In this document: positions 3,629 to 58,775 of the stretch, piece after piece
Position numbering within the stretch: the stretch's first letter is position 1
How the letters are laid out: every line of letters starts with the position of its first letter
Source of the DNA: Tubulanus polymorphus
Lineage: Eukaryota; Nemertea; Palaeonemertea; Tubulaniformes; Tubulanidae
Length of the DNA stretch: 64,000 nt
NCBI RefSeq assembly: GCF_964204645.1
Contig: NC_134032.1
Coordinates: 10,410,275 to 10,474,274 of the forward strand
Direction of reading: 5' to 3'
Notes under the pieces: model-generated
What the model was told of the DNA's origin: nothing
The model's input: only the letters and a program-made list of their open reading frames with translations
The model's database searches: none
Program-made: the position numbers and the translations under genes

Positions 3629-4168
3629 TTATGACCCTAAAACGGCGCATTTCGTATTTCCTCCCGAGCATCTCAACTTCTTTCCAACCACGATCAAAAT
3701 TGAGCCCAAAAAAATCTGGGCCAAACAAGCCATGACCCCGACCCCTAGAAGCGGGTCGACGACGTGATGGGTAGCTGCGCTAGACCTGTCTTTCTGCGTG
3801 AGGAAGTCCGTATGAAGCACGTGTCCGAGAATCAGACTAAATAGATAGCATACGAAGAGCATACAGTTATAGACGGTAAGAGCAATTGCAGCGCCATAAA
3901 TACTTCTCGTAGACTTGCAGCATTTGTTCGACTTGACCGCGCAGGCGATCATTAGTGCAAACCCGATAGTTCCACACGGGATGTACGTCTGGTAGGCGAA
4001 GTTATACGACTTGACGTAGAGACCGATCTCGACTCCGAGATTGATCATGGCCAGCGCGATTATGATCTTGGCGACCATGCCAGTGATCTTGGCTGCGGTT
4101 TCGTCCAGTTTCGGTCCGCCGCCCTCGGCATCATCAACCTTAAAGCTGCTACAGTTCATGTTACCCAT
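3629..4168 (-). CDS. Four-helix membrane protein, paralogue 1 of 5 (unknown family)
   Basis: The protein has 179 residues: a short polar N-terminus (MGNMNCSS...), TM1 about 30-52, TM2 62-79, TM3 91-118 and TM4 137-162, with a short basic cytosolic tail. Signatures shared by all five paralogues are NLGVEIGLYV at the end of TM1, YQTYxPCGTI in TM2, LILGHVL after TM3 and VVDPLLGVGV entering TM4. The even number of helices and the absence of a signal peptide suggest both termini are cytosolic. The topology and size recall the MS4A/CD20-like group, but I see no diagnostic motif, so the family is left open. On the minus strand the ATG immediately follows an AG, and a strong donor (GTAAGTACATGTAC) lies upstream at 5641-5654, implying a 5' UTR intron. 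The coding region is almost identical to 10101-10646. Confidence 0.75.
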   Translation of the reverse strand: MGNMNCSSFKVDDAEGGGPKLDETAAKITGMVAKIIIALAMINLGVEIGLYVKSYNFAYQTYIPCGTIGFALMIACAVKSNKCCKSTRSIYGAAIALTVYNCMLFVCYLFSLILGHVLHTDFLTQKDRSSAATHHVVDPLLGVGVMACLAQIFLGSILIVVGKKLRCSGGNTKCAVLGS

Positions 4169-4442
4169 CTTTCAACTAGAAATACAATCATAAATCCAAC
4201 TTAAACATTATCATAATTAGTGATTGTTCCTTATTTTTCTAATAATTATAAATCATATACGATTAATTCAATTAAACTTTGAATAGAAGTGTCCAGGTGA
4301 ACATGTTTTAAAGTTTTCTTCCCTTGTGGCAACAGGCATCCAAATAAAATTTCATTTTCACCCACACACACGGTTTTCTACTACAATGTTTCATGATAAA
4401 TAATGTAAAATCAGGGGCAGAACCAGTGGGATAATTGTGAAG

Positions 4443-4625
4443 AAGTTGTCACATCCCAAAAGGGAACTTTAATGTCCGAAAAGGCGGTCACTTCCAAACC
4501 GAGGGGATAATCAAACCGTACACCTCTAGCTGTTCCTCGGAGACAAATTTTCTTACAGGTCCTGAACTTGTCACATCCCAAAAGACACGTTGATGTCCAA
4601 AAAGCAATATTAAGCGTACACTCGC
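4443..4625 (+). repeat. Dispersed repeat, two adjacent copies (TTGTCACATCCCAAAAG type)
   Basis: Two related blocks, 4443-4525 and 4564-4625, both contain a 'TTGTCACATCCCAAAAG' core followed by 'TGTCC(G/A)AAAA'. The first continues into GAGGGGATAATCAAACCGTACAC. The same block occurs inverted at 28275-28362 in an intron of the tetraspanin gene. Three copies in 64 kb suggest an interspersed family. No ends or target duplications are visible. Confidence 0.6.
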
Positions 4626-5654
4626 ACTGAAATGCACCAGCATTTTGCTTGTTGACAAATTGAAAAAGGACGCTAAAAACTTTGTTGGAATTTTACAAGT
4701 TTGAATATCCGTAGTCTAGCAAAAAAGTACAAATCTCATTTACTAATCATTGCGAACATTTTCGGGGGTTACATTTTCCCTCTTCGGGCATAGTGCATAG
4801 ACTTTGACATCACACTGGTATTTTATGTGAAAATAAGACAAAAGCTAATTACAAAGAATTTTGAAATACATAGTAATGAGAAACAATGAGAATAAAAGGT
4901 ATGATTGACGAAAGGTGTTACTTACTCAGCGACGAACCTTAACTTTATCGTTTTACAAGTCTCACAAGTCCCCTGGATTCGCTCCCGAAAATAGATATAC
5001 AGTAGTTGAGGTTTATCGATAAACTAATTCATAGGGTTTCTTCACCAGCAATTTATAGAATATTCTAGGGAAGGTGATGATTCAATACCTCCGGTAAATT
5101 GGTCATAAACTAATGCTGTTAGGTCAGTAACCGGACCGTGGTTAATTTTTGTCAGTCATATTATTCATGTCGTCATCTACTCGTGTTAATTGGCTATATA
5201 TCATAGGTACACAACAACGCAAAAATTAAACACTCCCGGCTTTTATTTGCCTAAACCGGTTATGGGTTTGAAAAGTAGACCGCCAATCTATTAATCAATT
5301 TCAGTGAGTCATCGATTTACGAACAAAGAATTGAAATTTAACTATAAATACACGCATGCCATACAATCCAACTCAATATTCAATCACTCAATAATCAATA
5401 TGGTACACCCAACACCACTGCGGGGGTCTTGGTTCCATGAATCCTAGTTATTGGCTTAACCCAGGAGTAATTGGTCTGATTACACTCCAAGGCTTAACGT
5501 AACTCCCTGCTACAGTTCTCTGTGATTTTAAGCCTAGCTTTAGGGAACGAGACAGGTTTATTTTCTCACCACTACCTCAGAACGTTCGCGAATACGAGCC
5601 AAGTCTTAAAAACTGCGAGTCCCCCTATTCCAAACCGATAGTACATGTACTTAC

Positions 5655-5720
5655 TTTTCAATCCCTCTGAATCCGGGTTTAAAAAAAAATGTCAACGCTG
5701 TATTCCACGGTGTTAAAGTA
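5655..5720 (-). other. Candidate 5' UTR exon of the 3629-4168 gene
   Basis: On the minus strand the sequence ends in an optimal donor GTAAGTACATGTAC (5641-5654). The same 14 bases form the donor upstream of paralogue 4 at 13425-13438. Splicing from here to the AG at 4169-4170 would place the ATG as the first bases of the second exon. The 5' end of the exon is not defined. Confidence 0.45.
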
Positions 5721-6738
5721 CTATATAATAATAATGTGTGGTTCGGTTTTACAACGTTTTCGCGTGGTCGTATCGAACAGAGCTGTGTGTATGTGAGTAC
5801 TTAGTCACGCAGGCCACAGGCGCGTACACGGAAGCTCCGTATACGATCCGTTGTTGCCAGAGTAACAACAGCTTATGGTGAAAACCTGTTTACTCGACAG
5901 CGGTCACCTTGAGTTTCATAGAAGTGGCGGCAAAATAAGCCATGGGAGCACTTTAGAAATTGTTAATTTTTAAAATAGTTTCTCACGGTGGCTGTTCTCT
6001 AGGTTGCCAATCCTTGGGATAACTTTGATACCCATGGAACCGGGCTATCAGCAAAATCAAAAATATTAAACAATGATTCCTATTTTGGTATCTGTTTATG
6101 TTCATGGAATGTCATATGGTAGTCTTAATAAAAGAAGAGAAATAATTGAAAACACGCCTATTCAATAAGAAATACAAATGATTTAACAAATGATTCGAAC
6201 AACGTTACAAATTGAATTCTATTTCATTTGGTAATATTTCATATGTCTGTCTACTGTCTATGTTTTATGCCATCATCTTATTATGGGTCCAATGTTTTAA
6301 TTTGTATAGATATTTTATGTAAAGGGCTGTAAATAAATGTTATCATAATTAACATCACTATAGTTTTTTGTTTTGAGAATAAGTATGCTAAAATTTATAT
6401 AATATAGCTAATCATTTTTTAATTGCTAGAATATAACGCGAATTGAAAACATTGAAATCATTTAAGAAATCGCACTTTTTGGATACATTTTGCATCTTTT
6501 TTCGCAGAGTAAAATGCGGAATGTGGTGGGAATGTGGAAGCCACCAAAAATTAATTTCAAAGGTATCAAACGGAAAAATATGGTAGCATCGGTGGTGTTT
6601 TATTGTTACGAGTAGATACCTGAGTTTTTATGAATTTCTACGAAGTTCCGAGGAAACACAGATCAGTGTTATGTCATAAGGTGCATTTACTTTTCAGTTT
6701 GCATTGAAATGATTTGCTTGAGTAACTATACACTGTTT
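5721..6738. other. Intergenic, no gene recognised
   Basis: The block near 5740-5925 (TTTACAACGTTTTCGCG ... GTCACCTTGAG) resembles 11090-11285, so it is another boundary piece of the duplicated array. The rest (5930-6738) is AT-rich and shows no gene. An AATAAA-containing AT-rich stretch at 6280-6350 could be an old LINE tail, but this is weak. Confidence 0.4.
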
Positions 6739-7326
6739 TTATTCCAAAGAGTCGACTTTATTGTGTCCGTGGCCGTTTAGGCGGCTTTGTTTTGTTGAGA
6801 TCAGTCGTCCTGAATTTCTTCTCAATTTCTTCCCAACCACGACTACTATCGCGCCCAAGAAAATCTGCGCCAGGCTGGAAACAACACCAGCTCCGAGTAG
6901 CGGGTCGACTACCTGATGAACGGACGGGTTGCTCCGTTCCGGATCCATAAACCAGCCTTTAGTGTTGATCAAAGCGTGGCCCAGAATCACCATCACGAGA
7001 TAAACGATAAACAGAATAACATTCTGAAAAATGATAATGATTCCATACGTGTATATCGATTTGAAAAAATCGTCGCGCATGTATTTCTTCAATCGATAGA
7101 TGATCGCAAATCCGTAACCGATACATCCACAGGGGATGTAAGTCTGATAGCAAAGGTTATACGACATAACGTAGAGACCGATCTCGACTCCGAGATTGAT
7201 TGTTGCCAGCACGACTATGATCACAGAAACCATGCAAGCTATCTGGGTAGCTGTTTCGTCTAATTTCACCCGTTCGGCATCAGCTTCATCGAATCTAGAA
7301 AAATTGCGGTTCATTTGGTTTCCCAT
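6739..7326 (-). CDS. Four-helix membrane protein, paralogue 2 of 5
   Basis: The start is set at the MGNQMN methionine (7324-7326), not 13 codons upstream, because MGN is the N-terminus of three of the four other paralogues and an AG directly precedes this ATG. That gives 195 residues. The four helices and the shared NLGVEIGLYV, YQTYIPCG, VILGHAL and VVDPLLGAGV motifs are present. The loop between TM3 and TM4 is longer than in paralogue 1 (NTKGWFMDPERS versus HTDFLTQKDRS). The tail extends about 25 residues past TM4 and is rich in basic and polar residues. A possible upstream donor is GTAAGT at 7625-7630. It is the most diverged member of the array and has no recognisable GPCR remnant beside it. 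Confidence 0.72.
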   Translation of the reverse strand: MGNQMNRNFSRFDEADAERVKLDETATQIACMVSVIIVVLATINLGVEIGLYVMSYNLCYQTYIPCGCIGYGFAIIYRLKKYMRDDFFKSIYTYGIIIIFQNVILFIVYLVMVILGHALINTKGWFMDPERSNPSVHQVVDPLLGAGVVSSLAQIFLGAIVVVVGKKLRRNSGRLISTKQSRLNGHGHNKVDSLE

Positions 7327-7630
7327 CTTCCGTCTAGAATTAAACATGATAAGCCAAAGTTCCATCGAGAACTATCTGTAACACAGGGACCGCAGGTTTA
7401 CACATAAGCACTTGCTACTCTATTCAAAAGGATGGCGTGGTGAGCGAGGTAAACCAGTAAGCATTCACATGAAAAAATATGACCCGTGCTAATAGTTGGC
7501 ACGGTCCAAATCTAGCCCACATCAAACAGGTACGGGCCCATTTAGCGCCAGTGTGAAAATAGGTGCAGCCCTCAGCCACGGACCAATTATCGACTGTAGT
7601 TTCTTTTCACCCAACGTAAACTTTACTTAC

Positions 7631-7690
7631 CCTATACTCGTTTCTCTGCACTCTCTAATTATGTTGGGCTTCCGAAATTATGATTAGGTA
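7631..7690 (-). other. Candidate 5' UTR exon of the 6739-7326 gene
   Basis: The minus strand reads ...GAGTATAGG followed by GTAAGTAAAG at 7621-7630, a good donor 304 bases upstream of the AG that precedes the start codon. Its sequence does not obviously match the other paralogues' donor regions, so support is weaker than for the 13439 and 15893 exons. Confidence 0.3.
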
Positions 7691-8399
7691 TATATTCGAG
7701 AGGTATATATCAGTATCAAACGAATGTAAACTGCGTAGATATTGAAATCAATAATCCTTGTATGCCTGATGTAAAACGTATATATCTGAAATAGCTTGAT
7801 AAGGTCACCTTGAAGTAACCTATGGTACACGGAAATAATGTCATGTTCGATATCTAATCAGTCGAGTCGTGTGGGGTAGTGTGATCCAAGTTCCCAACAA
7901 ATATATCTTCCGCGTCTTGACCTGTGTCAGCATATGCGCATTTTACCCTGGCTAGCTTTAGGTCGATTTGCACATCTAGAAATAGGATTCCGTGAATTCC
8001 CAAAGATTCCACCATTCCGTTTTTAACAATACAGACAGTGTTGTGAGGCATCTCGGGATTTACATTCGGGCGATGACTAAGAACACAGTGATTTTATCGA
8101 CGAGAAATCGTATTTCAAATGGTATTAGTTTATGAACTTTTAAGTTGAGAAGAATGTCAAAAATACTTTCAAATAGGCTAGATGCACGTGATTTGCTATG
8201 AACATATTTAGATTTACAATCCATTGGAAGTAGAATTAATGTACTATCGTCACAAGGGACGTTCATTGAGGAAGTAATTTAAGGGTTTCGACTGGGTATA
8301 TTCAAACCCCCAGAAAACAACTGGCTTATTAAATGATTATATCTTAATCAAGCTGTTATCATAGTTTACTTTGATTGCATTTTGTGTGTTAAGGGTTGA
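7691..8399. other. Intergenic, only unrecognised short frames
   Basis: Two adjacent minus-strand open frames (7854-8051 and 8060-8266) show no recognisable domain. They could be pieces of a degraded element. A GTCACCTTGA string at 7804-7813 matches the boundary string seen at 5906 and 11275, so part of the stretch belongs to the duplicated array. Confidence 0.35.
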
Positions 8400-8605
8400 C
8401 TGTGAGCATATTATTTTCTTTATTGCATTTCTCTTTTTTTCTTTTCTCTTTTGAGGGGCCTGTTTTATACAAACTATTCCTTAGTTTCTACAGGCCCCTC
8501 CAGGTCTAATTTACTGTATTTTGTATTATGCTTTGTACACTATGCTGTAAATTATATTTGAAAAATAAAGTGTTCAAATCAAAATCAAATCAAAAAATCA
8601 AATAG
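8400..8605 (+). mobile_element. LINE 3' end with stem-loop and CAAAT-repeat tail
   Basis: A perfect 11-base inverted repeat (GAGGGGCCTGT at 8453-8463, ACAGGCCCCTC at 8490-8500) is followed by a T-rich 3' region, AATAAAG at 8563-8569, and a simple-repeat tail of CAAAATCAAATCAAA units (8575-8604). A 3' hairpin plus a short-unit tail is characteristic of 5'-truncated non-LTR elements of the CR1/L2 type. No coding part is left. The insertion sits just upstream of the duplicated GPCR pseudogene copy, which resumes at 8641. Confidence 0.6.
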
Positions 8606-8640
8606 TCTTTGGATTGCTTATAGATGACGCTGTTACCGAC

Positions 8641-9680
8641 AGGATTTACAATAAATCTGTGTATTCTGATGTACGTAGTCCATCAGATCGGTAACGACAT
8701 CCATCAACGACCCTACCCTCATATATCTTTGGATTGAAAGGAGGATGATGAACTCGACAGTGATTCGTGCGAACCGATTTGGCGGTTTAGCCTATGCTCG
8801 TCCGGCCCGCAAATTTGTCTTCACCTATTAGTTTACGCCGATTCTGTTAAGAGGAACTGTCGGTAAAATCTTTCCTAGTCGCGGTGTTCATTAGACGCAA
8901 CGAGTGGAACAAATCCGGCGTCATCTTCATGTTCTGTCTAGCTATAACAGATGGATTGTAAATGATGACTATGGGTGTTCATACCCGGCTTATATACATC
9001 TGCCGGGGACAGAGATATAGTATCGACATAACTGTTCGAAGCCAAGCAGGATGCAAACTATAAGCCGTCATACTTTTTTTGAGTTAAGGCGCGTCAGCGT
9101 TCCTCGCGATAGCCATGGCAGCTTTGTCAGCTTTCACGGTCATGTGACGCGAACTTGAAAAATCGTTGGATCTTATAATCAACAGCCTTCCAGCAACACT
9201 ATATCTTAATCATTTCGCTTTGCATTACGGTAATGCCCATGGCTACACAAGGAATCACGGGTATTCTTTTCCAACATTGTGGTAACCACCTCTTCGATTA
9301 GAGTGATGACCACATGCAATCACATACGAGCTGGACCGGGGCGTCTAACCTTGACCGTAAAAACCTCCTACCCTTTGTTGCAGAAGAAGATTGAATAACT
9401 TTTAGAATAACCTCTTTTAAAATTCTATATATGTTTAGAATAATTTATTTCGTTTATTAACCCATTTCTTCTCAATAACACGTAAAAACAACATAAGCAG
9501 ATAACTTTTGAAATCCTAAATCAATACACATGTAATGGGATTCATTCACTGAACACGATTACAAAAATGCCTCGTTTTGTACACAAAATATATAAATGAT
9601 TGTTTTAGAACATGTTATTTCTATGAATGAAATTTTAAAACAACGCAGATATCATAGTTATACTAACATGAATAAATGAA
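8641..9680. repeat. Duplicated segment, copy 2 (with internal deletion)
   Basis: This aligns with 776-1290 and then, after a junction near 9150, with 2430-2960. The missing middle corresponds to GPCR helix 4 to the C-terminus plus about 500 bases of 3' flank. The order and orientation relative to the adjacent four-helix gene are the same as in copy 1. Confidence 0.7.
8748..9140 (+). pseudogene. Truncated GPCR pseudogene (paralogue of 904-1938)
   Basis: The sequence from ATGAACTCGACAG follows the intact receptor through its N-terminus (AYARPARxF) into TM1, where an in-frame TAG (8829-8831) replaces a leucine codon. Later there are frame changes, for example around GGTAAAATCTTTCC. Similarity runs to the TM3 region (GCGTCAGCGTTCCTCGCGATAGCCATG), just before the E-R-F motif would appear, and is then lost at the deletion junction. 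The gene is therefore non-functional. Confidence 0.8.
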
Positions 9681-10100
9681 CGTATGTACCTAAATGATAA
9701 TGACAAAAATAAAATAATAGATATAGCAGGAAAGCAGCAATAGTTGATTTTCTGCATTAATAATGACCTTGCTCTGATTGCGAATTTTTTGTCCACAAGT
9801 GTGATTCCGCTATTTTGTTCGCACTGCGCATTCTTTTTGCAGTGATTTACAAAACTGGACGTACAGGAAAGTCAAAGCCACGTCAAAATGATGAATCGAT
9901 GACATCTATAAATTTGCGAACCGTTTATCTAATACTTGAACCTGAGAATATTGGACCGGGAGTGAGTTTAGTCATTCGACTGAAAAACGTTAAAACCATT
10001 ACCGGCCCAGAATACTTGATGAACAAATGCCATCATTATTTTCTACGCGTTACTTCATCATCACCATCATCAAACCAACGCTGCCGAAATATAAGTATTT

Positions 10101-10646
10101 TTAAAAAGGTTTCTTAATTTCGAGGCATTTCGTATTTCCTCCTGAGCATCTCAACTTCTTTCCAACCACGATCAAAATCGAGCCCAAACAAATCTGGGCC
10201 AAACAAGCCACGACCCCGACTCCTAGAAGCGGGTCGACGACGTGATGGGTAGCTGCGCTAGACCTATCTTTCTGCGTGAGGAAGTCCGTATGAAGCACGT
10301 GTCCGAGAATCAGACTAAAAAGATAGCATACGAAGAGCATACAGTTATAGACGGTAAGAGCAATTGCAGCGCCATAAATACTTCTCGTAGACTTGCAGCA
10401 ATTGCTCGACTTGACAGCGCAGGCGATCGTTAGTGCAAACCCGATAGTTCCACACGGGATGTACGTCTGGTAGGCGAAGTTATACGACTTGACGTAGAGA
10501 CCGATCTCGACTCCGAGATTGATCATGGCCAGCGCGATTATGACCTTGGCGACCATGCCAGTGATCTTGGCTGCGGTTTCGTCCAGTTTAGGCCCGCCAT
10601 CTTCGACATCATCAACCTTACATCCATTACAGTTTCTGTTACCCAT
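10101..10646 (-). CDS. Four-helix membrane protein, paralogue 3 of 5
   Basis: The protein has 181 residues and differs from paralogue 1 at only a handful of positions, mostly in the N-terminal 20 residues and the last few (…NTKCLEIKKPF versus …NTKCAVLGS). Helices and motifs are as in paralogue 1. The near-identity is confined to about 10128-10640; both flanks are strongly diverged, which suggests gene conversion between the two copies. The AG that abuts the start codon in the other four paralogues is AT here, so splicing, if it happens, must use another acceptor such as TTTAG nine bases upstream of the ATG. The frame is intact. Confidence 0.72.
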   Translation of the reverse strand: MGNRNCNGCKVDDVEDGGPKLDETAAKITGMVAKVIIALAMINLGVEIGLYVKSYNFAYQTYIPCGTIGFALTIACAVKSSNCCKSTRSIYGAAIALTVYNCMLFVCYLFSLILGHVLHTDFLTQKDRSSAATHHVVDPLLGVGVVACLAQICLGSILIVVGKKLRCSGGNTKCLEIKKPF

Positions 10647-11089
10647 ATTCCAGGCCTAAACAAATATGATTATCATCCAAGCATTAGTATCATAATCGTT
10701 ATTATTACTATTACTGTGAGCCAATGATTTTTGTATGTTTTTGTTTTTTATTTGTAGTAACCAGATTACTAAATTTAGATAATGCTGCAATTTAAAGTTT
10801 GATTTTAGGTAGTTAGCCGATCTAGATATCAGATGATTCCTGCTTCTGGTCAGTGTATAATATATCAAAAATACCAGGCTACACTGTATAGTATTACCTG
10901 GATGAAACTGAAAAGAATATGTTCATTTTCCCGAAATGTTCCCCGATTGACCCGATCTAAGATTGCAACCCTACTTTCAAATCAAACGTTTATATTATCG
11001 CTACTCACTTTTTCCGTCCTCCTTTTGAATCTGTATTGTTTATTATGGAATTTCAACACAATATTCAGTGCTTAGTATTAATCTTTAGG

Positions 11090-11785
11090 TGTGGCTATAT
11101 TTCTGTTTCTGAAACAACGTTCTCGCGTCACGACATAGAGGAATCAATATACGACAACGTACGTATATGGAACTACGCAGTAACGTACTTGAAAATAGCA
11201 TAGCTTCGTCACGCGAACAGGCTTGGTTGTTGAACTGTAGATGCTAGAGTAACCAGACAGTTTACTCGATAGGGGTCACCTTGATAATAAATCCTCATTC
11301 GTCAGGTGTACGTCCGTTGGCAAGGTGAGAATGTTGTTCATTGTCAAACATAAATCTCCTGGCCCGGTTTCAAAGAGTATAAATCCTCCATTTGGGTGAC
11401 AGCCATCAGTAATAATCAGCAACACCATGGTGACAAATTTCAAAACGTGTCCAGGGCCCAGTTTCACAAAAAGGTTTAACTCTTAAATCGATTTAATTTC
11501 TTCATTTATTCAATTTATCTTAAATCGATTTAGGCCTTAATCCTTTTTGTGAAACTGGGCCCTGGGATCATTTTGCATCTGCATTTATGAAACCCAGCCC
11601 TGAATCTAGAAAAGAGAAATGGTGAAATTTGGGCGATCTGAAGGATGGGCGGATTGTCCGAGGATGGATGACACAGAGAGCCGATTGAAAGCTGTATTAG
11701 ACCAATGAGCTTTGTAAAATAAGAATAATAAACTTATATAGAAAGTTACGAATTTATTGGACCGTGACTTATTAAGAAGAGCAAA
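11090..11785. repeat. Duplicated segment, copy 3 (no GPCR left)
   Basis: The left part (11090-11285) resembles 5740-5925, including the AGAGTAAC and GTCACCTTGA strings. The right part (11590-11780: GGCGATCTGAAGGATGG ... TAAACTTATATAGAAAGTTACGAATTTATT) resembles 2180-2350 and 14430-14575. Between them lies a 113-bp palindromic element (11452-11564). No receptor sequence remains. Confidence 0.55.
11452..11564. mobile_element. MITE-like element with perfect 23-bp terminal inverted repeats
   Basis: The ends are CAGGGCCCAGTTTCACAAAA... (11452-11474) and its exact complement (11542-11564). Inside, TTAAATCGATTTAA-like strings are again mirrored, so nearly the whole 113 bp is palindromic. There is no coding capacity. 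It belongs to the GGGCCCAGTTnCACA family that recurs at 18114, 26917, 28912, 42823 and 52053, and it is the least decayed copy in the window. Confidence 0.8.
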
Positions 11786-12270
11786 AAAACATTCATCCGC
11801 AACGTATTGTTATTGTCGACCGTGTGACACCAAGGTTCAATGTTATGATTCATAAGATAATTGTGTTCGGATTCTTAACACGGATATCGTCACAACAAAT
11901 TCATGTCTCTGTGTATAAGATAGATATCTTTTTATTTTCATCTGAACACGTAATCGGAAATAACGAAGGCATATGAATAAATATACAATAAAAGTTATCG
12001 TGATCCCGATGATAAGGTTATAATAGGAATTGATATCATAAAACATAAGAAAAAGTCCCGCTTCCCAAGAATGGCTTTGTGTCATGATAAATGATCTAAA
12101 AAATGAATTTCTTTAAAAAACGCCATAGATTTAAAGGAAATATGCATCTTAGTCGGATTTATTTCGTTTATCAAACTCATAGTGGGTATTCGACAACAAC
12201 TCTTGGTGGAATTTTACACACACGTTTCAGCTTAACCGAGTTCGGAGACAGAGTCTGAAACATTTTCTTT

Positions 12271-12816
12271 CTAAATGGGTTCGTTATTTGTAACGATAAG
12301 CTGTCCTCGATATCTGATCTTTTTCCCAATTACGATCAGTATCGCACCCAAACAAATTTGGGCCACGCTGGATACGACACCGACCCCGAGAATTGGATCG
12401 ACTATGTGATGGACGGCCGGGGTGTTTCGTTTGATTTCCGTGAACCAGCCGGGAGTTTCCATCAAAACGTGGCTCAAAATCAAGGTCATAAGATAGCAGA
12501 AAAACAATATACAGTTATAGACGGTGATGACGATGCCGTAAATAAAGATCGATTTAATGATCCCCGATTTGTTTTTCTTGATTCCGCTAGAGGTCACTGC
12601 GGCGAAAGCGATAGTTCCACACGGGGCGTACGTCTGACAGCAAAGGTTAAATGTCATGACGTAAAGACCGATCTCGACTCCGAGACTGATTGTTGCTAGC
12701 AGTATCAGGAAACCAGTGACCATGGAAAGGACCTGTTTCGCAGTTTCGCCTATTTCAATCCTTTCTCCGTCGACATCGTCGTTATACGACATTCGCCTGG
12801 TAATTTGGTTTCCCAT
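12271..12816 (-). CDS. Four-helix membrane protein, paralogue 4 of 5
   Basis: The protein has 181 residues beginning MGNQITRRMS; Gly2 with Thr6 fits an N-myristoylation signal better than in the other members. The four helices and the shared SLGVEIGLYV, CQTYAPCGTI, LILSHVLMETPGW and IVDPILGVGV motifs are present. The start codon lies directly after a textbook acceptor (TTTCTTACAG on the minus strand), with a matching donor GTAAGTACATGTAC at 13425-13438, so the gene has a 5' UTR intron of about 620 bp and a single coding exon. It is closest to paralogue 5 (shared VTSSGIKxN loop and PGWFTExxRN). Function is unknown; a plasma-membrane or endomembrane location is inferred only from the helices. 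Confidence 0.78.
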   Translation of the reverse strand: MGNQITRRMSYNDDVDGERIEIGETAKQVLSMVTGFLILLATISLGVEIGLYVMTFNLCCQTYAPCGTIAFAAVTSSGIKKNKSGIIKSIFIYGIVITVYNCILFFCYLMTLILSHVLMETPGWFTEIKRNTPAVHHIVDPILGVGVVSSVAQICLGAILIVIGKKIRYRGQLIVTNNEPI

Positions 12817-13438
12817 CTGTAAGAAAGGGATAAAGAGTGTACAAGGCTACATCGAATAACAGCTAGTCGTGCGGTCATGCGCTCTTATCACGTGCAATGC
12901 CATATCGACGGTCAAACACGATGGTCGATTTACATGACGAATCCCTGGAACCATATTTCATATCTTTTGTTTTATGTATGGCAAGTCTCCTACACTGAAG
13001 GATAAAATGATCTACACCACGGGACATTCATAGGGGTTTTCACCAAGAACACAGTTCTATATATATAGTCACTAAATGCGACCAGGACTCGTAAACGAAA
13101 TCCACCATAGCTGGAACGTTGTAATTAAGTCCCCCGCACCACTTTAGGGACAAGGGTTTTCCAAAAATCCGTGTTATCTTCACGGCGTCTGCGCGTGAGA
13201 GATCTGTTCTATACAGTCACTCCATACACACAGCTGTGAGGGGAGAGTTCACCACGAACCCAGGCGAGAGGAGTCCATATATTTATTCATCATCCACACC
13301 AGTCCATACGGTTCTTGGTGTACTCTCGGTCACCTCACATAAATATCCGTGGGAGTTACTACAGTTAAAGCGGAGTATCTGTGTGTGAAGTAGGAGCGAT
13401 CTGCAAATATTTACTAAACTGTCGGTACATGTACTTAC

Positions 13439-13510
13439 GTTTAGTTTTTCGACTCCAAATAGAGCGAGAGCAGGAAAATCGATATTTCTGATGTAACAGT
13501 CACGTGACGA
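13439..13510 (-). other. 5' UTR exon of the 12271-12816 gene
   Basis: The region 13439-13530 is clearly homologous to 15893-15975: both read, on the plus strand, CGTTT..GTTTTTCGACT, then GAT(A/G)TTTCTGATGTAACAGTCAC-like sequence and AAAGTCATGC. Both end at the same position in a GTAAGTAC donor on the minus strand. Conservation of this non-coding exon and its donor between paralogues supports the two-exon gene model. Confidence 0.6.
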
Positions 13511-13930
13511 AAGTCATGCGCGGTTCTTTTCGATAGTAGCCATGAACTTACATAGACGATTAACCCGACAAATATCGCGATTGCAAATATCGGACAGATT
13601 TATTTTTAAGTCTTCGTAATAAATTTTCTTACGCGCTGATTTCATAAATCATATTAACCTTAATTGATAAAATTTCATACAAGCGTCGTGTAACATATAC
13701 CGGTATTTATGCCCGGCGAGAAGAAAAGCATTTTACAAAAAAAGTTACATGCATCTTACAGTCGTCATGCAGCCATTATAGCGATCGATTGCCCTCTGAA
13801 AGGATTTAAACTTGTTTTAGACGTGTTGAAAAAAGGTGTAGGAACTTCTCCCAGAAAAAAACCTGAATCCTAACCATTTTACAATCGACTGACGATTTTT
13901 GAGATGTCTTTCTGATATGCTACTGGCGGT
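13511..13930. other. Upstream region of paralogue 4, no gene recognised
   Basis: This region holds the presumed promoter of the 12271-12816 gene and AT-rich sequence. No open frame or repeat that I can name. Confidence 0.35.
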
Positions 13931-13989
13931 GGCGACTTGCAGTCGTATCCTTGGGCGTTACGGCAGCAATTCGTGCAGGTATCAATTTG

Positions 13990-14580
13990 CTGTCTGTACC
14001 TACCCTTAGGTAATCTACCGCCTGAACCGACGATCACCTTTTGCGAAGTCTTGATGCTCGTAGTCCGCGCATGGTGTAATTTAGAGGTGATGGGGGACGA
14101 ATATCACTTTTTTCACGTCTGCCCGCATTTCCAGGAATTCAGAGCTAGATACATCCCGGAGCGCTATTGGAGATTCCCCAATAGCGTCAAGTTGTACAAT
14201 TTATTCAATTAAAATTGCCAAACCCTTAAAAAACTGGCGTTGTATATTACGCAAATGTTTAATACATTTCTAATGACGATAAATGTTGTAATGTATATTA
14301 TAAAATACTTTTGTGCTCTGTGCAGTTGTATAGTTGTGGAGTAAATTAATTAATTGTAATTGTAATTTTGCCTGGGTCAGGTGACAAATGTTGTTCAATT
14401 TCAAAAGGAATTCCTTGAGTCTTGAAAGGAGAATTAATGAAGATAGGACGGTACGTTTTTTCAAGGATGGCTTTTGTCCGAGGATGGTGATACAGACAGC
14501 GCATGGGCAGGCATTAGACCAAGCTAGAAAAAAATAGAATGATAAACTTGTAGCAATTTACGAAATTATTTGAACTGTAA
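13990..14580. repeat. Duplicated segment, copy 4, split by a LINE fragment
   Basis: The block 13990-14075 (…CGCGCATGGTG) matches 2030-2115. The block from GGGTCAGGTGA at 14372 matches from 2125 on. In copy 1 the two halves are only about 10 bases apart, whereas here about 300 bases of LINE sequence lie between them. This fixes the insertion as later than the duplication. Confidence 0.65.
14076..14371 (+). pseudogene. 5'-truncated LINE insertion (reverse-transcriptase tail)
   Basis: Translation gives GDEYHFFHVCPHF, then R-x-RYIPERYWRFPNSVKLYNLF and a stop at 14210-14212, the same C-terminal signature as the remnant at 69-308. About 160 bases of 3' UTR follow, ending in TTAATTAATTGTAATTGTAATTTT, a short-unit tail. 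The piece interrupts a duplicated block, so its limits can be read by comparison with copy 1. Because the ORF end is intact, it looks younger than the 69-308 copy. Confidence 0.7.
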
Positions 14581-15049
14581 ATTTCTACGAGTAAAAAAGC
14601 TACATGCGTACCAATTATTGCCTGAATTCAGGGCAGTGACGCCAATCTTAGCAACGGTTGGATATTATCATTTACAGGCTTCTATCGACAAAAATTGTAT
14701 TCATTTCAAATACCGACATTATCACATCAAATTCAGGTCTCTCAGAAATGTTTTTTCTTTATTTTCATTTAGCACAAAATCGGAAATAACAAGTACGTAT
14801 GAATAATATGTACAACCAATTTAATTGTATTGTCAATAACATCATAATGATGGCTTTTAAGGATGAAATCAGATAAATCCATTTAAAAATAAACGCGATT
14901 GATAAAGGATAATATACAAAAGCTAGTTGGATTCATCGGGCTCCGAATCAATATTCGACACCAACTCGGAGTATGTACAGTTTTTCCAGGGTCCGTCGTA
15001 TATTACTTGAATTCGTTGGACTGCAGTCCTCGGCGAACTATTATCGTTT

Positions 15050-15601
15050 CTAAATGGGTACATTATAAGTAACAATACGTTTCCCTAGGTATCTGAATTT
15101 TTTGCCAATTACGATGAGTATCACGCCGAAGAAGATCTGGGCCGCGCTGGACGCGACACCGACCGCGAGAAGTGGATCGACAACGTGATGGACGGCTTGG
15201 GAGTTTCGGTTCTTTTCCGTGAACCAGCCAGGAGTTTCCAACAATGCGTGACTCAAAATCAGGGTCATAAAATAGCAGAAAAACAATATACAGTTGAAGA
15301 CGGTGATCAAGATGCCGTAGGTAAAGATCGATTTGATAGTTCTCAAATTGTTGTTCTTTATTCCGCTAGAGGTCACTGCAGCGAAAGCGATAGTTGCATA
15401 CGGGGCGTACGTCTGATAGCAAAGGTTAAACATCATGACGTAGAGACCGACCTCGACTCCGGTGTTGATTGCAGCTAGCGGTACTATGGCAAGAGCGACC
15501 GCGGAAAGGATCTGGCTCGTAATTTCATCTATTTCGATCTCCTCCTCTCCTCCGTCGACATGATCGTTTTCAGAAGATCGATCGATTATCTGGTTTTCCA
15601 T
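15050..15601 (-). CDS. Four-helix membrane protein, paralogue 5 of 5
   Basis: The start is placed at MENQIIDRSS (15599-15601), 10 codons inside the longest frame, because this ATG abuts an acceptor (GTCTTTAAG) and aligns with the MGN start of the other copies; this gives 183 residues. Gly2 is replaced by Glu, so unlike some paralogues it cannot be N-myristoylated. The N-terminus is very acidic (GGEEEIEIDEI). The four helices and family motifs are present (NTGVEVGLYV, YQTYAPYATI, LILSHALLETPGW, VVDPLLAVGV); the PCG cysteine of TM2 is changed to Tyr. The 5' exon lies at 15893 and beyond. Confidence 0.75.
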   Translation of the reverse strand: MENQIIDRSSENDHVDGGEEEIEIDEITSQILSAVALAIVPLAAINTGVEVGLYVMMFNLCYQTYAPYATIAFAAVTSSGIKNNNLRTIKSIFTYGILITVFNCILFFCYFMTLILSHALLETPGWFTEKNRNSQAVHHVVDPLLAVGVASSAAQIFFGVILIVIGKKFRYLGKRIVTYNVPI

Positions 15602-15892
15602 CTTAAAGACAAGAATAAATATGAAAACCAAGAACCCACAGCTTCTTCCGTGTCTGTTGTAAGTCTACTTTGGAGGCACGGGAATTTTTCCTAATCATAT
15701 ATAGTTCGTTCTAGCAATGAGCATGGACGTATAAACTAGTTCTCCTGTAATCTAGTCCATGCATCGAGCAGCATTGCTCATAGTCATTCCACATCTTAAG
15801 GCTGAGCGATTATGGTTGAACGTGCAAAGATACCTATATCAGATAAGAAGGTTTTTGCACAAACGCGTAGGCCTAGTGCCCTGGGTACTTAC

Positions 15893-18809: not shown

Positions 18810-18903
18810 ACCCCCTATTTATAACAATATGTATAAATATCGCGTACAGTTTGAGTTTGAGGCAACTTCAACAGTCGCAGTTTGGAGTCTCTCCTCTCAA
18901 CAG
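18810..18903 (+). promoter_or_regulatory. Promoter and 5' UTR exon of the FN2-multicopper oxidase gene
   Basis: A TATA-like GTATAAATAT (18831-18840) is followed about 25-60 bases later by an untranslated exon ending CTCTCAACAG at 18903, next to the donor GTAAGA (18904). The matching acceptor AACATTACAG ends at 19950, one base before the start codon. The exact transcription start is inferred. Confidence 0.6.
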
Positions 18904-19951: not shown

Positions 19952-22900
19952 ATGCTGCACGTTTCGGTTATTGTGGTGACGATTTTCGTTCAAGCGATTG
20001 ATGTGGTATCGGGTCACGGTGGAGCTATTAACCTCTACCCAGGACAGCCCGCTCCAGGTAAGAACATTTTGAAATAGTTTTCACAGATTTTACAAACAAT
20101 GTTGGTGATGTCATAGGGGGATTTACGAAGGAGGCAATCTTGGGGTCATTTTGATGTTTTCCTTGAGGGTTAGACTTCTTAGGAGGAGGTAAACTTCTTT
20201 CCAGGGGACGGAGCCTTAAGGGGATAATTTGAGACTAGAAAGGCATCCATCTTTTGACGAAAATGGGTTATGACGTCATGGAGGATTTTTCGAAGCGACA
20301 GTGAAGTGAAGTTTTTTCGAAGCCACATTTCAAAGGGATGAATAGTTCAATGATATTCTCACAGAGTTTTAATGAAACGAAAACGATTAATTTTTTAATC
20401 AAAAATTGAATAAATAGATTAGGTCACTGAATTAGCTGCTTTATTTCTTTATTTTCAGCTGCACCTAATTTGATTCGTGAGTAATGAAAAACGTGTTTTC
20501 GCATGGGTTATCGGTTGCATGTAGTAGTGCTAGGCAATGTGTTACACACTATGCATATTGTTGAATTAGTAGTTTATTTTACCTTATTTTTATAGCATTT
20601 TATTCTTAACACAGTCTAAATGCATATGTCTGATGTATTTCCAATCTAATAACATAATGTACATGATATAAAGATCTGAAATGTATCCAACTAGCACACC
20701 TAGCGGGTACTCAATTGCCAGAAGAGGAACCTCTACTGCGGCATCTGATATATTGCTAGAAAAGTGAACTAATTATGCGCACCACTCGGGGGTCCTCGAC
20801 TGCCAAACGAGGAATCCTAGGCGTATTTACCTTGATATTTTCTTTTGAGTACATAATTTAGAATTAAAACTAGGATATCAGTGCCGCGCACATGTGGATC
20901 CTATAAACGCCACATTTGATCTCTAATAACAGATATCTTGTAAAATCTAAGATAATTACTTATCGGACTATCCGACTAGGGATCAGGCGGATCCCCGTTT
21001 GCTAGTGGCAATTATCTTTAAAAGTAACTTAAGTCTTTTGCTGTCACCACTCGGTAAAATATCATAATTGATATATTATGTAAACCTACTGCAAAGTATA
21101 AAACTCCTAAATGCTAACTTAATAGGCTTACTCGTAACCCAGGCCATGGTAAACTCGATCGCATATATAAAATAAATGAAATGAAAATAGATATGAATAT
21201 AAATTGGTTGAAATGAAAATCTATCGTGACAGAGACCTATTCGGGGAAGCCGTGTGTTAGCCAGTACACGTATAATGGAGTTACATACAAAAACGAATGC
21301 ACGAAAGCCAGTTACACGAAATACTGGTGCGCAACATCAACCGACTTCCCGGTTAACTCCAACGCCTGGAGCGTATGCGGTGAGTATAGTTGAAAATAGG
21401 AAACTTCAAGTCACATCGAATGAAATAGTAGATGAAAAAAAGAAATGTTCAATTTTTCTCTATATTCCCGTTTTTGTAGACCACGATGTCGGCGTTAAAA
21501 GTTACACTCGTAAGTTTTAATTTGTAAAATTATCCAAGAACAAGAAGGCAAAAATCGGAATTCTCCTCACAAAACTCTGAAGCCGAGTTCAGTTTATTTC
21601 ATAATGTTTAATGGAATTGCGTTGTTGATTTATTTGCGGCGGTACAGTTACGAAAAAAGGCCGAAACTGTTATTTCCCGTTTCTCTACAACGGTAAACAG
21701 CACTACTCGTGCGTCGAATGGGAAAAGACCGGTAAAAAATGGTGCCCGACGTCGAGCATTTATTCCAGTTATGCGTTCACATGGAAAAATAAATGGGAAT
21801 ATTGCAGTAAGATTTAAATTTGAAGTTTAAACTGAGGATCTATCTGAAACGTCTTTCTAACCGTCTCGGGATATGGATTTATACTTCTGTAAAACAAAAT
21901 CTTTAAGCAACTCTGGTACTAAATTGAGTAACGCCTAGCTTAAACTGAACTTATCTTTTGACCATCAAACTTAAACTATTCTAAATTTCACCTCGAAGTT
22001 ACTCTATAGTCTTTAGCGTAACTGAACGTAACCTGTTAATCAACTTAACTAACCCAATTATTTAACTGCTCTTTAAGTTGATATGGCTTTAATCAATACA
22101 GAAATCCGGTCGTAAACTGATTAAAAGTATAAAAATAACTTAATGGAAAATTTGAAATGTTCAGTTGTTGGAGCATTTCAAAATTTCAGCAATGGCTTTA
22201 GTCATTTCAAGTGTTTCTACTTAAGTTAATGTTCGCAGACCATTCATCCTCAGTTATTCATAAAATACTTTTCAATTCCAGTTGCTGCTTTTTGGTGTCA
22301 GTACAGCTTATTTTCCGAATCTGCAAAGATTGTACAATTTTTATGTATGCATGCTTTTTTCTGAATGAAATCTTTTTCAAAAGTTATCGATAACGATACC
22401 ATCGATCATAGATTGAGTTCCTTATACTGGAATTCATGAAAAGAACAGTTGCATGGTTGGCTTACTAATGAATCAACCCTTCTCGAAGATGGCTGCCTGT
22501 ATAAATCATTTATGATGTCATCAAACCCAGTGTTTCTCGTGGTGTTTACGTGCTTATTCCTTCGATGATGTCATGAGGGGAATGTAGAGGCAGGCATCGT
22601 TCATTTCATGGTAGCAGCCATCTTTGATATTGACGTTTCAGAGAAAGATAAGAAAAAAGGCGGTTCGGATGAAAGCTCTGAGGAGGAAAAAGATGACTCT
22701 TATAGGATTCCAGGTAAGCTGGGCCCTTATAGGTTAGAAATGCGTGAAATACTATAAGACGGATCGAATTTGTAGTATGTTTGTAGAATTGCCTATTGCC
22801 ACTAGTCGGTAATCTGGTGGGATAGGTAGTGCTCTAAAGCTGGTTAGAACATTTGACCTGCCCAGATTTGGGATTAAGGGATGGTATCTTAAATCGGGTA

Positions 22901-25900
22901 ATGGCTATTCTTAGAAACCCTATAATCTCAGAATAGGTAGACCTACTGTTAGCGATGAGATCATATGGAACCTGCCTTTTTAAGTCAGGTTCCAGTCAGT
23001 CTCCAGAATACTGACTGAGGTTGTCCTAGATGAGCCAAGCCATAGACTGGAGGGAAGAAATAAACTTAGACCTGCCTTATCTTCAATTTTAGCGCCTGCT
23101 GTACCCTATGACCCACTTTATCCTCGTACCTGTAACCCAAACGATAAGGTTTGTGTGATCACGCTGGTTGTGGAAGAACATCTGACAATGGTTTACAATA
23201 AAGAGTTGATGACCGCTAAAAACGGAAAACTTCTTGATAAGGCAAACAATATTGTCGATTCAAACAAGGTAAGAAAAGTACCAGAAAAAAAAGATTTGAT
23301 GAAGGGTCTTCTACTCCTCCCCATTTTCTCTCTCTCTCTCTCTCTGTTTACCCTCTCTTTCCAGGCCCCCTCGTCTTTCTTCTCGTCGTCCCATATCACT
23401 CTTTTCTCCTTCCACTATTTCTTCCCATTCTCTCTTATCACAAACCTCTATCGCCTTAAACCCCTCTGACCCAAGCTACATGTTACAAAGATTTACCTCG
23501 ATAATTGAATCAAGTCTTATTCAATTTCTATTCCAGGTTATTGTCGGTGACAACTGGTATTTGCCACGTAGGGCTATAGTCGTCAATGGGACACTCCCGG
23601 GGCCGCGACTGGACGTTTACGAGGGGCAGAAACTTGTCATCAACGTCCATAACAAAATGTTCAGCGACTCCACGACTATCCATTGGCACGGGCTTCACTC
23701 CAAGTCTACCCCCTACTTCGACGGCGCTTCGTTCATCAATATGTGCCCGATTCCACCCAGTCTGATCGTCACAAGTCCGATTATGGCGGCCCCCTACGGC
23801 ACACATTGGTACCACACGCATGTCGGGTTCCAGATGGGCGACGGGATGTTCGGACCGTTGATAGTGCATAAGAAAAACGCCCCTCAATACGCAGGGGATT
23901 TCGTGATGACGCTTGCTTTGTGGAATCACCATCACGGCACGAACGAATGGTTCCTTTACGAGGAGAATCACAAGATGTTCTCACAACTGAACAAAAAGTA
24001 AATTTGACTTGAATGTTTTATAAAAGATCTTTTGAACTATGATCAAGTCCAGACAACTCAATAGACCACAATCCACTGTCCAGGCCCAAGTTTCAGAGCT
24101 CTTTATTAAGATTTGGCTCTAATTTCAAATCATTGGAAATAAGGACTCTTCTATCTTCACGCACAACTTTGGAACTGTATCCAAATCTTAAGTTTTTTCC
24201 TCACTGTTGAAACGACAAGTTAAAATTCACTTCGTTCTTTCCTACAGATATCACAATGAAACTAAATTCCGTCGATTTTCGAGCGGTTTAATCAACGGTA
24301 AAGGCAGGTTCCAGGCAGTAGACGGTACCTTCATCACGGACGGACCTTTGGAGACGTACACCGTCGAACCGGGCAAGAAATACCTGTTCCGTATCATCGG
24401 CGCGCAGGCGCACAAGCAATTCGCCGTCAGCTTCCACGGTCATCAGTTCCAGGTTGTGGCGTCAGATGGCGCCGACATCAAACCGTTCATGGCCACGTCT
24501 GTCATAGTAAGCGGGGGCGAGCGATTTGACGTCATTTTGACGGCCGACCAACCCGTCGACAATTACTGGATCGAAGGTTACACGAAGGATAACTGGAAGG
24601 CCCACGCGATCTTACACTATAACGGCGCCCCCAACGCCGACCCGACTGGTCCATTGAGAAATCCGCTCGTTTGCTCGGCCGCGAAACCTTGCACCGAAGT
24701 CTGCGACTACCCGAAACCGAAATCTTCGAACATCAATTGCGAGACCTTCGGAACGATCAAGTCTCTACCGGCCGTGCCGCCGCCCGCGATGACGCACAAT
24801 TCCCCGAAAGACATCTTCTTGAATTTCGGCCGCCCCGGTTACACGGGTAAAGGTCCACCTACGATCAACGGCATTCAATTCAAATTCCCAACGACGTCCG
24901 TCCTGAGCGACCCGAATACCGGTATCACGGAATGCGACCCGTCGAAGTGTGGTACGGACAAGCTTTGCGCCTGTACGCATCATTATCATATCCGTAAGGG
25001 TTCCACTATACAGATGGTGTTCATGAGTATGGGCAAGGGCCGCGGCACGCACCCTATACATCTTCACGGTCACTACTTCAGCGTGTTGAAAGTCGGTTAC
25101 CCTCGAGTGGACGCGAACGGCAAATTCCTCGGTGATAACTCGGATATCGTCTGCGACGGGTCGTTCTGCAATCAGGGCAGTTGGAAGGATCCCGCCTGGA
25201 ACAAACAAATACCGGGTCTCAATTTGGTCGATCCGCCGCTGAAAGATACTCTGAATATCAAACCAGGTGGCTACGCGGTCGTGCGCTTCAAGGTTTGTAA
25301 ATAGATAAGATATTTTTGATTTCTTCAATGGGAATTAGGTTATGTAGGAATCGAGGATCTGGCAGATTGGACAGGGTGAAGTCAAGCTCCCGAAGTGATG
25401 TAGGGTCCATTAGGTAGCACTAGTGGTGTGAGGATGTTACTCTATAACGGGTAATTGGGGAACTGGCAATGCGACTGTGGCAATCGAGGATTCATCAGGG
25501 GCGCTAATGTGAAGTCAGAATTACAAAATATGAAACTATGTATACCGATTTATATAATACTATCAGAGTTTAAACGATATGAATAATTTTCATATGAAAT
25601 TTTCACAAGATCACTGAAAAAAACAGCGTAAAGAGGCATTAAAACTATAATAATGCTACATTAAGGACTGCTTCGAAGCAACAGTAATACGTAGCTTGTA
25701 CAAGAAGTCAGCCATCAGAAAATTAACAAAATGAAATAAAGAGACATACTAATAAGGCGAAAAGACATGATACAGATCAGGAAACTTATTACTTTCGTGG
25801 CTTTTGGAAATTAAGAAAGTGACGATAATCTTTTTTTTTCTTTGATATCTTCTTCAGGCGGATAATCCGGGAGTTTGGATATTGCATTGTCACATCGAAG

Positions 25901-26362
25901 AACATTTGGCTGGAGGTATGGCGCTGGTATTCCTGGAAGGTCAGGAAGAATGGAATGTACCGGACGAGTTTCCTCAGTGCGGTCACTACACACCTTTCTT
26001 TACTCGAAAAGCTGCCAAAATGAGTAAAAAACGTTCGCAGCTCAGGTAAGCCCGATTACTCGTTCATACCTTCACATATAATTCACATTTCGAATGCTTC
26101 CACTGATATCCCCATGACATCATCAAAAGTCCTATTCATATCCCCCCTGAAAAGATGGCTGTCTGCATGAACCCCTTCACGATTTATCCGTACATAGACC
26201 ATTCTTGTAGACATGAATCATCAAATCATCCAAAAGACCCATTCTAGACAGATGTTAGTAAATCCCCCTAGACATGGTCAATTCTTCCCTGAAACTGGCC
26301 TAGCAGTGCCCTCGTCATTCAAAATTTCTTTTTCTTCGGTTATTTTCAGAAAACGGTCATAA
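19952..26362 (+). CDS. Secreted multicopper oxidase (laccase-like) with two N-terminal fibronectin type II domains
   Basis: Coding exons: 19952-20057, 20459-20476, 21233-21379, 21480-21509, 21648-21806, 22642-22713, 23093-23268, 23537-23997, 24248-25292, 25858-26045, 26350-26362. They sum to 2415 nt (804 aa) with consistent phase. Order: signal peptide (1-20), FN2-1 (C49-C90, four Cys, WCATS), FN2-2 (C108-C153, [15 protein letters not shown]), acidic/lysine linker (154-177), then three cupredoxin domains. All copper motifs are intact: HWHG (285-288), HWYHTH (326-331), HPIHLHGH (658-665) and [12 protein letters not shown] (748-759) with Met as presumed axial type 1 ligand. It should oxidise phenols, amines or metal ions with reduction of O2 to water, outside the cell; FN2 modules commonly bind collagen or gelatin, so matrix or cuticle targeting is an inference. 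FN2 exons are phase 1-1, as expected for shuffled modules. Substrate unknown. Confidence 0.88.
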
Positions 26363-43067: not shown

Positions 43068-43295
43068 ATGCTTGTGGAGAATTTACATGGTAACCCCTTA
43101 GAACACTCCACATTTATGGTAACATGGTAACCCGTTAGAATACAACATACCCTAAAATCGCATCATGGCAGTCGAGGGCAATTTTTCTTATAACGTTAAC
43201 TGACAAAGAACGTCGGAAAATACCGATTTGAATTTGAAATTTGAAAACAAGGCGTTTCGAAGAAAGGATTCGAATCGATAGAATTCGCCTCAAAT

Positions 43296-46200
43296 ATGAG
43301 TAGAATTAGCGAAAACCTTCCCTCCCGTAGCGGTGGACCAGGTTCCGGTTGGTTATTTGCGACGCTTAATGCTAATCGCCGCTTTCTCAAGGTCGTTAAA
43401 GAGAGTCGTCGTCTTGCCTCCGAACAGACGGCTGGCCATGGCTACCAGGTCGGCGTGTTCACGAAACCCGAAGTGCTCGCTGGTCCCGCCAGCTCGATGG
43501 AGACGCCGGAGTCCGGTGATATAACCAGCGATGAGGAAGGCTCCGAAAACCAAATAGCCGATGTCGAAGTTACTATAAAAAAGACCGATTACAACCTTAA
43601 CGAAATGGAAGTATTTATTGAGCCTAGCCGGCAGCCAGCATGTTCTGCCGATGCGGATATCAGATCAAATGGAGGTGAAGGTCATATGGACAACGTCTCT
43701 TTGACATCCTCTCTTTCCACAATCGCGAACACGGAAACACGTGATGAGCCGACCGGAAGTGACGACGAAGAATGGGACCTCGATAAATTGACGGCTCCAC
43801 CAGAACCCGAGACATACGACGCTCAGAAAATGAAAGATGGCTCCTGGCTATTCGTGACATTATTTTCAACGCGAAAATTCCTCAAGGCCAAAGACACTGA
43901 CGGACACCGAAACGACGAGAATTTCATCCACAGTAGCGATACTGAAAGCGACATGATCGAGCTTGAAAACGATTCAGACAAACCGTCATCACTATCCGGG
44001 GAAGCTCTCGCTCGTCTCGGTAATTCGTCGACCGACATTACCGTCAAGGATCGGGAATTTCCGGCGCACCCGAGGCGAGTTTCCGCCGCGTCGACGGTTT
44101 TTAGCGAGAACGAGGCCGCGTGCGTCGAGCGCGTTATGGCGGAAGCATCGGAACGGACGAACTCCGACGTGTTCGAAAACGACGATTGGGACTACACGAA
44201 TTGTCTACATACCAGCCATCTCGAACCGGGCGATACAGAGCCCGAGATGATGTCGGTACGTGGAGGTGCAGTTGACGATATGAGTCCCAATGAAAGCAGG
44301 CCTGATTCAGAGAATGATAAGAAACGGATACGAAATGAGGTTGAAACAACAGACGAAACTAAGGAGATCACATCAAATGTGATGGCTTATAATGTCGAAT
44401 TAGACCAAAGCGAAATCGATGAAAGGTCGATTCCGAACGAATTGAAAACGAACAATACGGATGTATTCGAACGCGATTCGAACCTCATAGAGAATTCATT
44501 ATTGATGTCTTCATCACCTGAACATACTAGCCGACACAGTCCTGTTGACAGTTCAAAGGGGGATATGTCAAGAGATGGATTTCTGGGTGGATCTGGGAGC
44601 TGTAAAGATGCTGTTCTAGATACGAATAACATGGACGATGTTGTAGATTGTGGCGACGATTTATCCAAAACTCAAGACGTGGATGGTGACGAAAGTGGAA
44701 AAACCGATGACGTAGTCGGCGTAGAGTTAACGAATACCGATGACGTAGATGATGATAAATCTACGAAAACTGATAATGTCGATGATAACACGACAAACAC
44801 AGATTGCGTAAGCAATGAAGAAGAAGCCAAAACTAATGACGTAGTCGATAAGGGATCAGTGAATACCGATGATGAAGATAGGTATGAAATAACGAAAACT
44901 GACGACGTAAATTATGAAAAGGAATCTGGAATCGACGACGAAGATGGCAAAGAAAGCCCTAACCAGGGAGATCTTTCCGAAGCGCAAATTAATTACGTAA
45001 ATTATGATACAAAAACTGCTGACGAAGATGAACATAACTCTAACACTAAAATTAATGCTGATGCGGTAGAAAGTAATGGTGAGAAAAGCGACGAAATGGC
45101 AAATGGATATATTTCAACAGGGAGTTACGGGAATGTAGATTCTGATGAAACTTCAGCTCACGATGAAATACAGCACTGTGTAGTGATCGAAGGTGTTGCT
45201 TCTAAGTCGTCACTCGGTGACGCACGTAACCAATTACAACAAATTAGCGAAAACAGAGACTCGCAGGAAATCACGTATTCACAAGTTTCAAAGCGCGAGC
45301 CGCCGGTTGATACTAGTCAGAATATATCAAATTCAGACAACGGAGTTTATAACTGTAGCGATATCGTGGAGGAACATTTAACTATGGCAACTTCTGAGAA
45401 ATCGGATTCTGGATTCAATGCGATAGGGACCGCAAATACTGGTGACGTAGTTGGTGGTAACATCCTAAAAACGGGAGACGCGCGTGGCGACAATCCTGCT
45501 GAGACTGCTGACGAAAATTTCACGGAATTTGGGGAAAATGAGGTATTTCTGGCAAATGAACCGGGAAATGTTATAGTGGAGAATTCTGAGGCGTTAAATC
45601 CAACAGAAAGTCGATCAGATACTAACAATATCGATAAGGTGCCGCTAGACGGCGCACTAGGTTTGACTGCCACGGAGGAACACGATTTTCAAAAGTCCAC
45701 GGTCGATTCCGAAAAGGATGAAGCAACTCTGTTGGATTTAGGGATGGAAAATGGAGAAATCAAAGATGTTTTTGTAAATGGTTCGAATAATAAGCCAGTC
45801 ACAGTACAGGAACATAAAAGTGCCGAACCTGATTTAGCCAACGACGTGACTGACCTTGACGGTCAGGAAATAGGATGCAGAATATCGGTTTGTAAACAAG
45901 AAGAACAAATCCATAGCGAATTGTCGATCTGTGCCCAGGAAGAAGGAAAGTCATCGAGTGGGGAATACGGTGCAGACAATTCGCAACTCACACCTGATAA
46001 AAATGGAAGAAATGTAACAATGGAGGAGACAAGGATTGAAGATGGAAGAGCTGAACGTGACCTTATATCGAAAGAGAATTTGGAATTACAGCTGGACGAA
46101 AACAATAAAGGTACCATCGGAAATTTCGATTTGGACCTTAATTCGGAACAAGTGCAAGACAACGGTCATGGAATTGATGGTGATTTGAAATTGAAAACCG

Positions 46201-58566: not shown

Positions 58567-58775
58567 TTTCAGATTAATCTAATTCGTCTGCGGGACGCGC
58601 CTACTTGCTGAAACTTATTATCCTATCATAACCCACCGCGTAAGTTTTTAACGGACAATACGCAGAGCTCGTATAACTTGTACAGGTTACATCTGATTTT
58701 GTCGCTTCGGAAAGCAAATTATTTTATGTCAATGTTGAATATTATAAACTTGACTATACAAACTAGCTGGTGTAT

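Follow-up and report, generated by a model that had tools for sequence, protein, structure and literature searches.

A multicopper oxidase gene with two fibronectin type II modules in Tubulanus polymorphus

The gene and its predicted product

The gene considered here lies on the plus strand of a 64,000-nucleotide stretch of Tubulanus polymorphus DNA (the window), and its predicted product carries two fibronectin type II (FN2) modules ahead of a multicopper oxidase. The rebuilt coding sequence has 11 coding exons at positions 19952-26362 that are read in one unbroken frame of 2415 nucleotides (804 codons and a stop), with GT-AG at every intron and intron phases of 1,1,1,1,1,1,0,2,0,2. The parts of the product follow in the order putative signal peptide, first FN2 module (FN2-1), spacer, second FN2 module (FN2-2), charged linker and, from approximately residue 178, the oxidase. 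When the gene was searched against the other oxidase loci of the genome, a paralogue was detected 6 Mb away on the minus strand, at C8:16483524-16487822. Its model encodes 790 amino acids, is 60% identical over the full length, and has the same order of parts. The features of the window gene are as follows.

18860-18903, plus strand: possible 5' untranslated exon, recognized by eye, with a TATA-like element upstream at about 18823-18840
19952-20057, plus strand: exon 1, with the start codon and a putative signal peptide, ending at a phase-1 intron; has a counterpart in the paralogue
20459-20476, plus strand: exon 2, 18-nucleotide microexon of phase 1-1; the paralogue has an 18-nucleotide exon at the equivalent place
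21233-21379, plus strand: exon 3, FN2-1 (C49-C90), phase 1-1; the paralogous exon is also 147 nucleotides long and is 55% identical
21480-21509, plus strand: exon 4, a spacer of 30 nucleotides that separates the two FN2 modules, phase 1-1; a 30-nucleotide exon is present in the paralogue
21648-21806, plus strand: exon 5, FN2-2 (C108-C153, with CYFPF), phase 1-1; alone over the Pfam fn2 cut-off
22642-22713, plus strand: exon 6, charged linker with YRIP at its end, phase 1-1; the YRIP/APA junction is kept in the paralogue
23093-23268, plus strand: exon 7, beginning of the oxidase part, ahead of domain 1; 176 nucleotides in both paralogues
23537-23997, plus strand: exon 8, cupredoxin domain 1 with H285, H287, H329 and H331; Cu-oxidase_3, 113 bits
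24248-25292, plus strand: exon 9, domain 2 together with the greater part of domain 3, with H658, H661 and H663; Pfam Cu-oxidase, 107 bits, and Cu-oxidase_2, 116 bits
25858-26045, plus strand: exon 10, end of domain 3, with ligands at 748, 749, 750, 754 and 759
26350-26362, plus strand: exon 11, last codons and stop, completing a basic tail that ends in KKRSQLRKRS

A similar arrangement of TATA element, short exon and intron also precedes the paralogue. On the Kyte-Doolittle scale, the hydrophobic core of the putative signal peptide in the window gene reaches 3.0, and an N-terminal hydrophobic core is present in both paralogues as judged by hydropathy alone. A check of the window gene for tandem repeats found none.

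Across the whole 804-residue protein, Pfam fn2 matches two stretches with 30.2 bits, above the curated cut-off. FN2-1 (residues 49-90) by itself scores 17.3 bits, under the cut-off of 22.2. We nonetheless regard it as an FN2 module, because its four cysteines are all present and because a profile built from two sequences of the FN2 pair picks up MMP2, MMP9 and fibronectin across both modules (E about 1e-13). An AlphaFold model of FN2-1 alone, made from the single sequence, had a pLDDT of 59, too low for it to be relied on. The three Pfam matches in the oxidase part are all far above their curated cut-offs, and all 12 copper ligands are present, namely ten histidines, one cysteine and the axial Met759. 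We take the ligands to be distributed among the centres as is established for laccases, with H658, C749, H754 and M759 at T1, H285 and H661 at T2, and H287, H329, H331, H663, H748 and H750 at T3.

The initial annotation had joined eleven exons into one 804-codon frame, and had read in it two four-cysteine FN2 modules and a complete three-domain multicopper oxidase with its His, Cys and Met ligands. The rebuilt model, with its GT-AG introns and matched phases, bears out the frame, as do the paired fn2 stretches and pair profile for the modules, and the three Cu-oxidase families with their 12 ligands for the enzyme.

Elsewhere in the window, a 7tm_1 receptor is encoded separately at 835-1935 (plus strand), and at least five intron-poor receptor-like genes form a tandem array at 53633-64000 (minus strand), of which the one tested has a weak match to 7TM_GPCR_Srx. 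At positions 3632-15664 (minus strand), a short frame of about 180-210 amino acids that resembles a membrane protein is present in tandem copies, and the two tested gave no Pfam match. An open frame of 2211 amino acids without a stop, also lacking a Pfam match, occupies 43245-49877 on the plus strand.

A proposed working for the FN2 oxidase

The matches of the FN2-pair profile, the laccase relatives of the oxidase part, and the chemistry of insect laccase-2, in which catechol oxidation cross-links and tans the cuticle (PMC7036934), together suggest a secreted phenol oxidase whose FN2 pair sits on a matrix ligand and whose products cross-link or pigment proteins. We assign this full working a probability of roughly 0.5. 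The secretion, matrix binding, substrate and cross-linking role that we infer would fit together as follows. The protein would be secreted, and its FN2 pair would hold the oxidase on a matrix ligand that, by family precedent, is perhaps collagen or gelatin-like. Electrons from phenols or catechols would enter at the type-1 copper and be passed to the trinuclear centre, where O2 would be reduced to water, and the quinones formed would cross-link or pigment proteins at the site where the enzyme is held.

By analogy with its relatives, the FN2 pair would most likely bind a collagen- or gelatin-like matrix ligand, and the initial annotation had likewise proposed that the pair anchors the oxidase to extracellular matrix. 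When the two modules are taken together, gelatinases and fibronectin give the best matches, and another FN2 pair in this genome adjoins an astacin and thrombospondin-1, which is a matrix-type context. These observations argue against the idea that the pair, although real, has some other ligand, such as a phosphocholine lipid (as for PDC-109) or a partner protein (as for IGF2R), or is a mere spacer. We consider that idea unlikely, but it has points in its favour. Among the weaker Protein Data Bank matches are PDC-109, the cation-independent mannose-6-phosphate (IGF2) receptor and factor XII. Also, the canonical FPF that usually follows the first cysteine is missing from FN2-1 in both paralogues, with QYxY in its place, suggesting that the ligand of FN2-1 may differ from the classical one.

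The substrates of the FN2 oxidase are most likely phenols or catechols. Iron is oxidized by some multicopper oxidases of animals, and the substrate is not readable from the sequence here, such that a ferroxidase or other metal oxidase might be proposed instead. However, the solved structures that score best against the oxidase part are those of laccases, whereas Fet3 scores lower (125 versus 198 bits) and ceruloplasmin matches only over a short stretch, which makes oxidation of metals improbable. At the position of the substrate-binding Asp of fungal laccases, as aligned by eye, the window gene has His and the paralogue has Asp, and therefore the two copies may differ in substrate.

A diverged paralogue with the same layout

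The two FN2 oxidases agree exon by exon over most of their length. Exons of 18, 147, 30 and 176 nucleotides are common to both, and the first eight intron phases are equal (1,1,1,1,1,1,0,2). The window gene differs in having two extra introns in its last part, with exon 11 and the intron before exon 10 being absent from the paralogue. Across the exon junction, both genes conserve the last residues of the linker and the first ones of the oxidase (YRIP/APA), but the middle of the linker is not conserved. That a diverged paralogue repeats the complete layout indicates that the architecture of the window gene is not due to chance. Within the FN2 exons, nonsynonymous differences between the pair are 0.32-0.33, compared to 0.76-0.84 at silent sites, which points to purifying selection. 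Since silent sites are saturated between the paralogues while FN2 residues are constrained, the FN2-oxidase fusion is older than the duplication, itself an old one. Two introns of the paralogue are filled with short tandem repeats, which are ACTCAGTGATTCAAGG-like and CATGTTATCCACAGCGGC-like (L026, about 4240-3790 and 3345-2955).

On the basis of the genomic sequence, we consider it nearly certain that the window holds one gene encoding both the FN2 pair and a complete oxidase, a statement that applies to the gene and its architecture alone. The decisive evidence that this is not two genes joined is the exon-by-exon repetition of the arrangement in the paralogue. Gene-prediction errors have generated false FN2 fusions in lancelets, even in orthologous pairs (PMC4967905), and this precedent, a gene model built from genomic sequence, and the potential polyadenylation signals AATAAA (21788) and ATTAAA (22120) close to the end of the FN2 exons would be compatible with an FN2 protein gene and a neighbouring oxidase gene that were joined on paper. 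We reject this very improbable reading, given the paralogue with its matching exons and phases, the lack, at both loci, of any signal-peptide start in the stretch that separates FN2-2 from the oxidase, a linker-oxidase intron of only 82 nucleotides in the paralogue, and flanking genes that differ between the loci. Upstream of the linker exon, just one ATG (22608) is in frame with it, and translation from there gives no signal peptide. No neighbouring genes were shared when frames of the window were compared with approximately 10 kb beyond each side of the paralogue's 10-kb piece. The 268-Mb genome has 65 FN2 matches in about 20 clusters, yet FN2 exons are found directly upstream and on the same strand at two of ten oxidase loci; as a rough count, this also argues against chance linkage.

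Origin, comparison with known enzymes, and relatives

Approximately ten oxidase loci are present in the 268-Mb genome: the FN2 pair of genes, four clustered genes and four singles. The clustered genes (L027, L028, L029) lie at C9:5.69-5.74 Mb and have few introns. In a tree of the oxidases of this genome only, the two FN2 oxidases form a clade (support 100/100) whose likely sister is the C9 cluster (90/94), a placement to be taken with caution in view of long branches. At the remaining eight loci, a genome-derived FN2 profile detected no FN2 within the 10-kb pieces examined, and within this genome the insertion is therefore confined to the FN2-oxidase branch. Searches with either FN2 region likewise recovered only the two FN2 oxidase loci as close relatives. 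Among GTDB genome contigs no relative of the gene was found, as expected for an animal gene. Searches for COX1 and, with no positive control, for the molluscan haemocyanin domain gave no match either.

Phase-1 introns bound the signal-peptide exon, the microexon, the spacer, the linker and both FN2 exons, the last being class 1-1 shuffling modules in both paralogues. Such boundaries are the classical setting for module insertion by exon shuffling. They suggest that the FN2 modules were inserted between the signal peptide and the catalytic part most likely by this route, after which the gene was duplicated, with its full layout kept in both copies. Supported by its paralogue, the FN2 oxidase is a clean example of modules that were placed behind a signal-peptide intron of phase 1.

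The initial annotation took this architecture as not known to have been described, and we found no description of FN2 with a multicopper oxidase or laccase in one protein in the searchable full-text literature. Terms for both occur in PMC9643190, which, going by its title and abstract, deals with blood coagulation proteins. The architecture of the FN2 oxidase is real and, as judged from that literature, a new combination of known domains rather than a new kind of system; with it, multicopper oxidases join the enzyme classes known to occur with FN2 modules.

Known systems resemble it in different respects. Enzymes with tandem FN2 modules include MMP2 and MMP9, which are the closest solved matches to the FN2 pair; these have three FN2 modules inserted inside the metalloprotease domain, whereas here two modules lie ahead of the oxidase. 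Animal laccases of the insect laccase-2/MCO2 type resemble it as three-domain enzymes with complete ligands and an extended N-terminal region, and also in secretion and phenol oxidation, which are probable for the FN2 oxidase, but insect laccases are described with a variable N-terminal part and a cysteine-rich region (PMC4203857, PMC7036934) where the FN2 oxidase has its FN2 pair. Insect multicopper oxidase-related protein (MCORP) is another animal multicopper oxidase family member that departs from the standard form; unlike the FN2 oxidase, which keeps all ligands, it has lost its copper ligands and is membrane-anchored (PMC4203857). In this genome, astacin loci at C1:20.53-20.59 Mb also set an FN2 pair beside an enzyme domain of secreted type, although that enzyme is a protease, the domain order differs, and the FN2 modules there are not the nearest relatives of the oxidase's own. 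One of them (L041, C1:20528000-20537999, minus strand) carries in succession an astacin protease, a pair of FN2 modules and thrombospondin-1 modules, and FN2 pairs of similar spacing occur nearby at C1:20.565 and 20.588 Mb.

If the FN2 pair docks the oxidase on matrix, an animal would have a cross-linking enzyme seated on collagen-like material through the type of module with which vertebrate gelatinases find collagen. Tentatively, the two genes might represent a lineage-specific, duplicated class of laccases that are guided by an FN2 pair to collagenous matrix and there carry out oxidative cross-linking, as an uncatalogued oxidase counterpart of the gelatinases.

Other oxidase relatives in the genome have lost copper ligands. 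Two long single-frame relatives, at C9:13.96 Mb (L031:4549-7644) and C10:1.86 Mb (L032:4050-7598), read IRSSFLG and HSTDVNE, respectively, in the HCHIExH region. Their N-terminal regions of 400-600 residues contain Gly/Met-rich or Gln/Met/Pro-rich repeats without a Pfam match, and judging from these sequences they look like structural pseudo-oxidases. A third relative with broken ligands lies at C9:13.846 Mb (L030:2718-1420 and 1264-719), where HSMVVDQ replaces HCHIExH.
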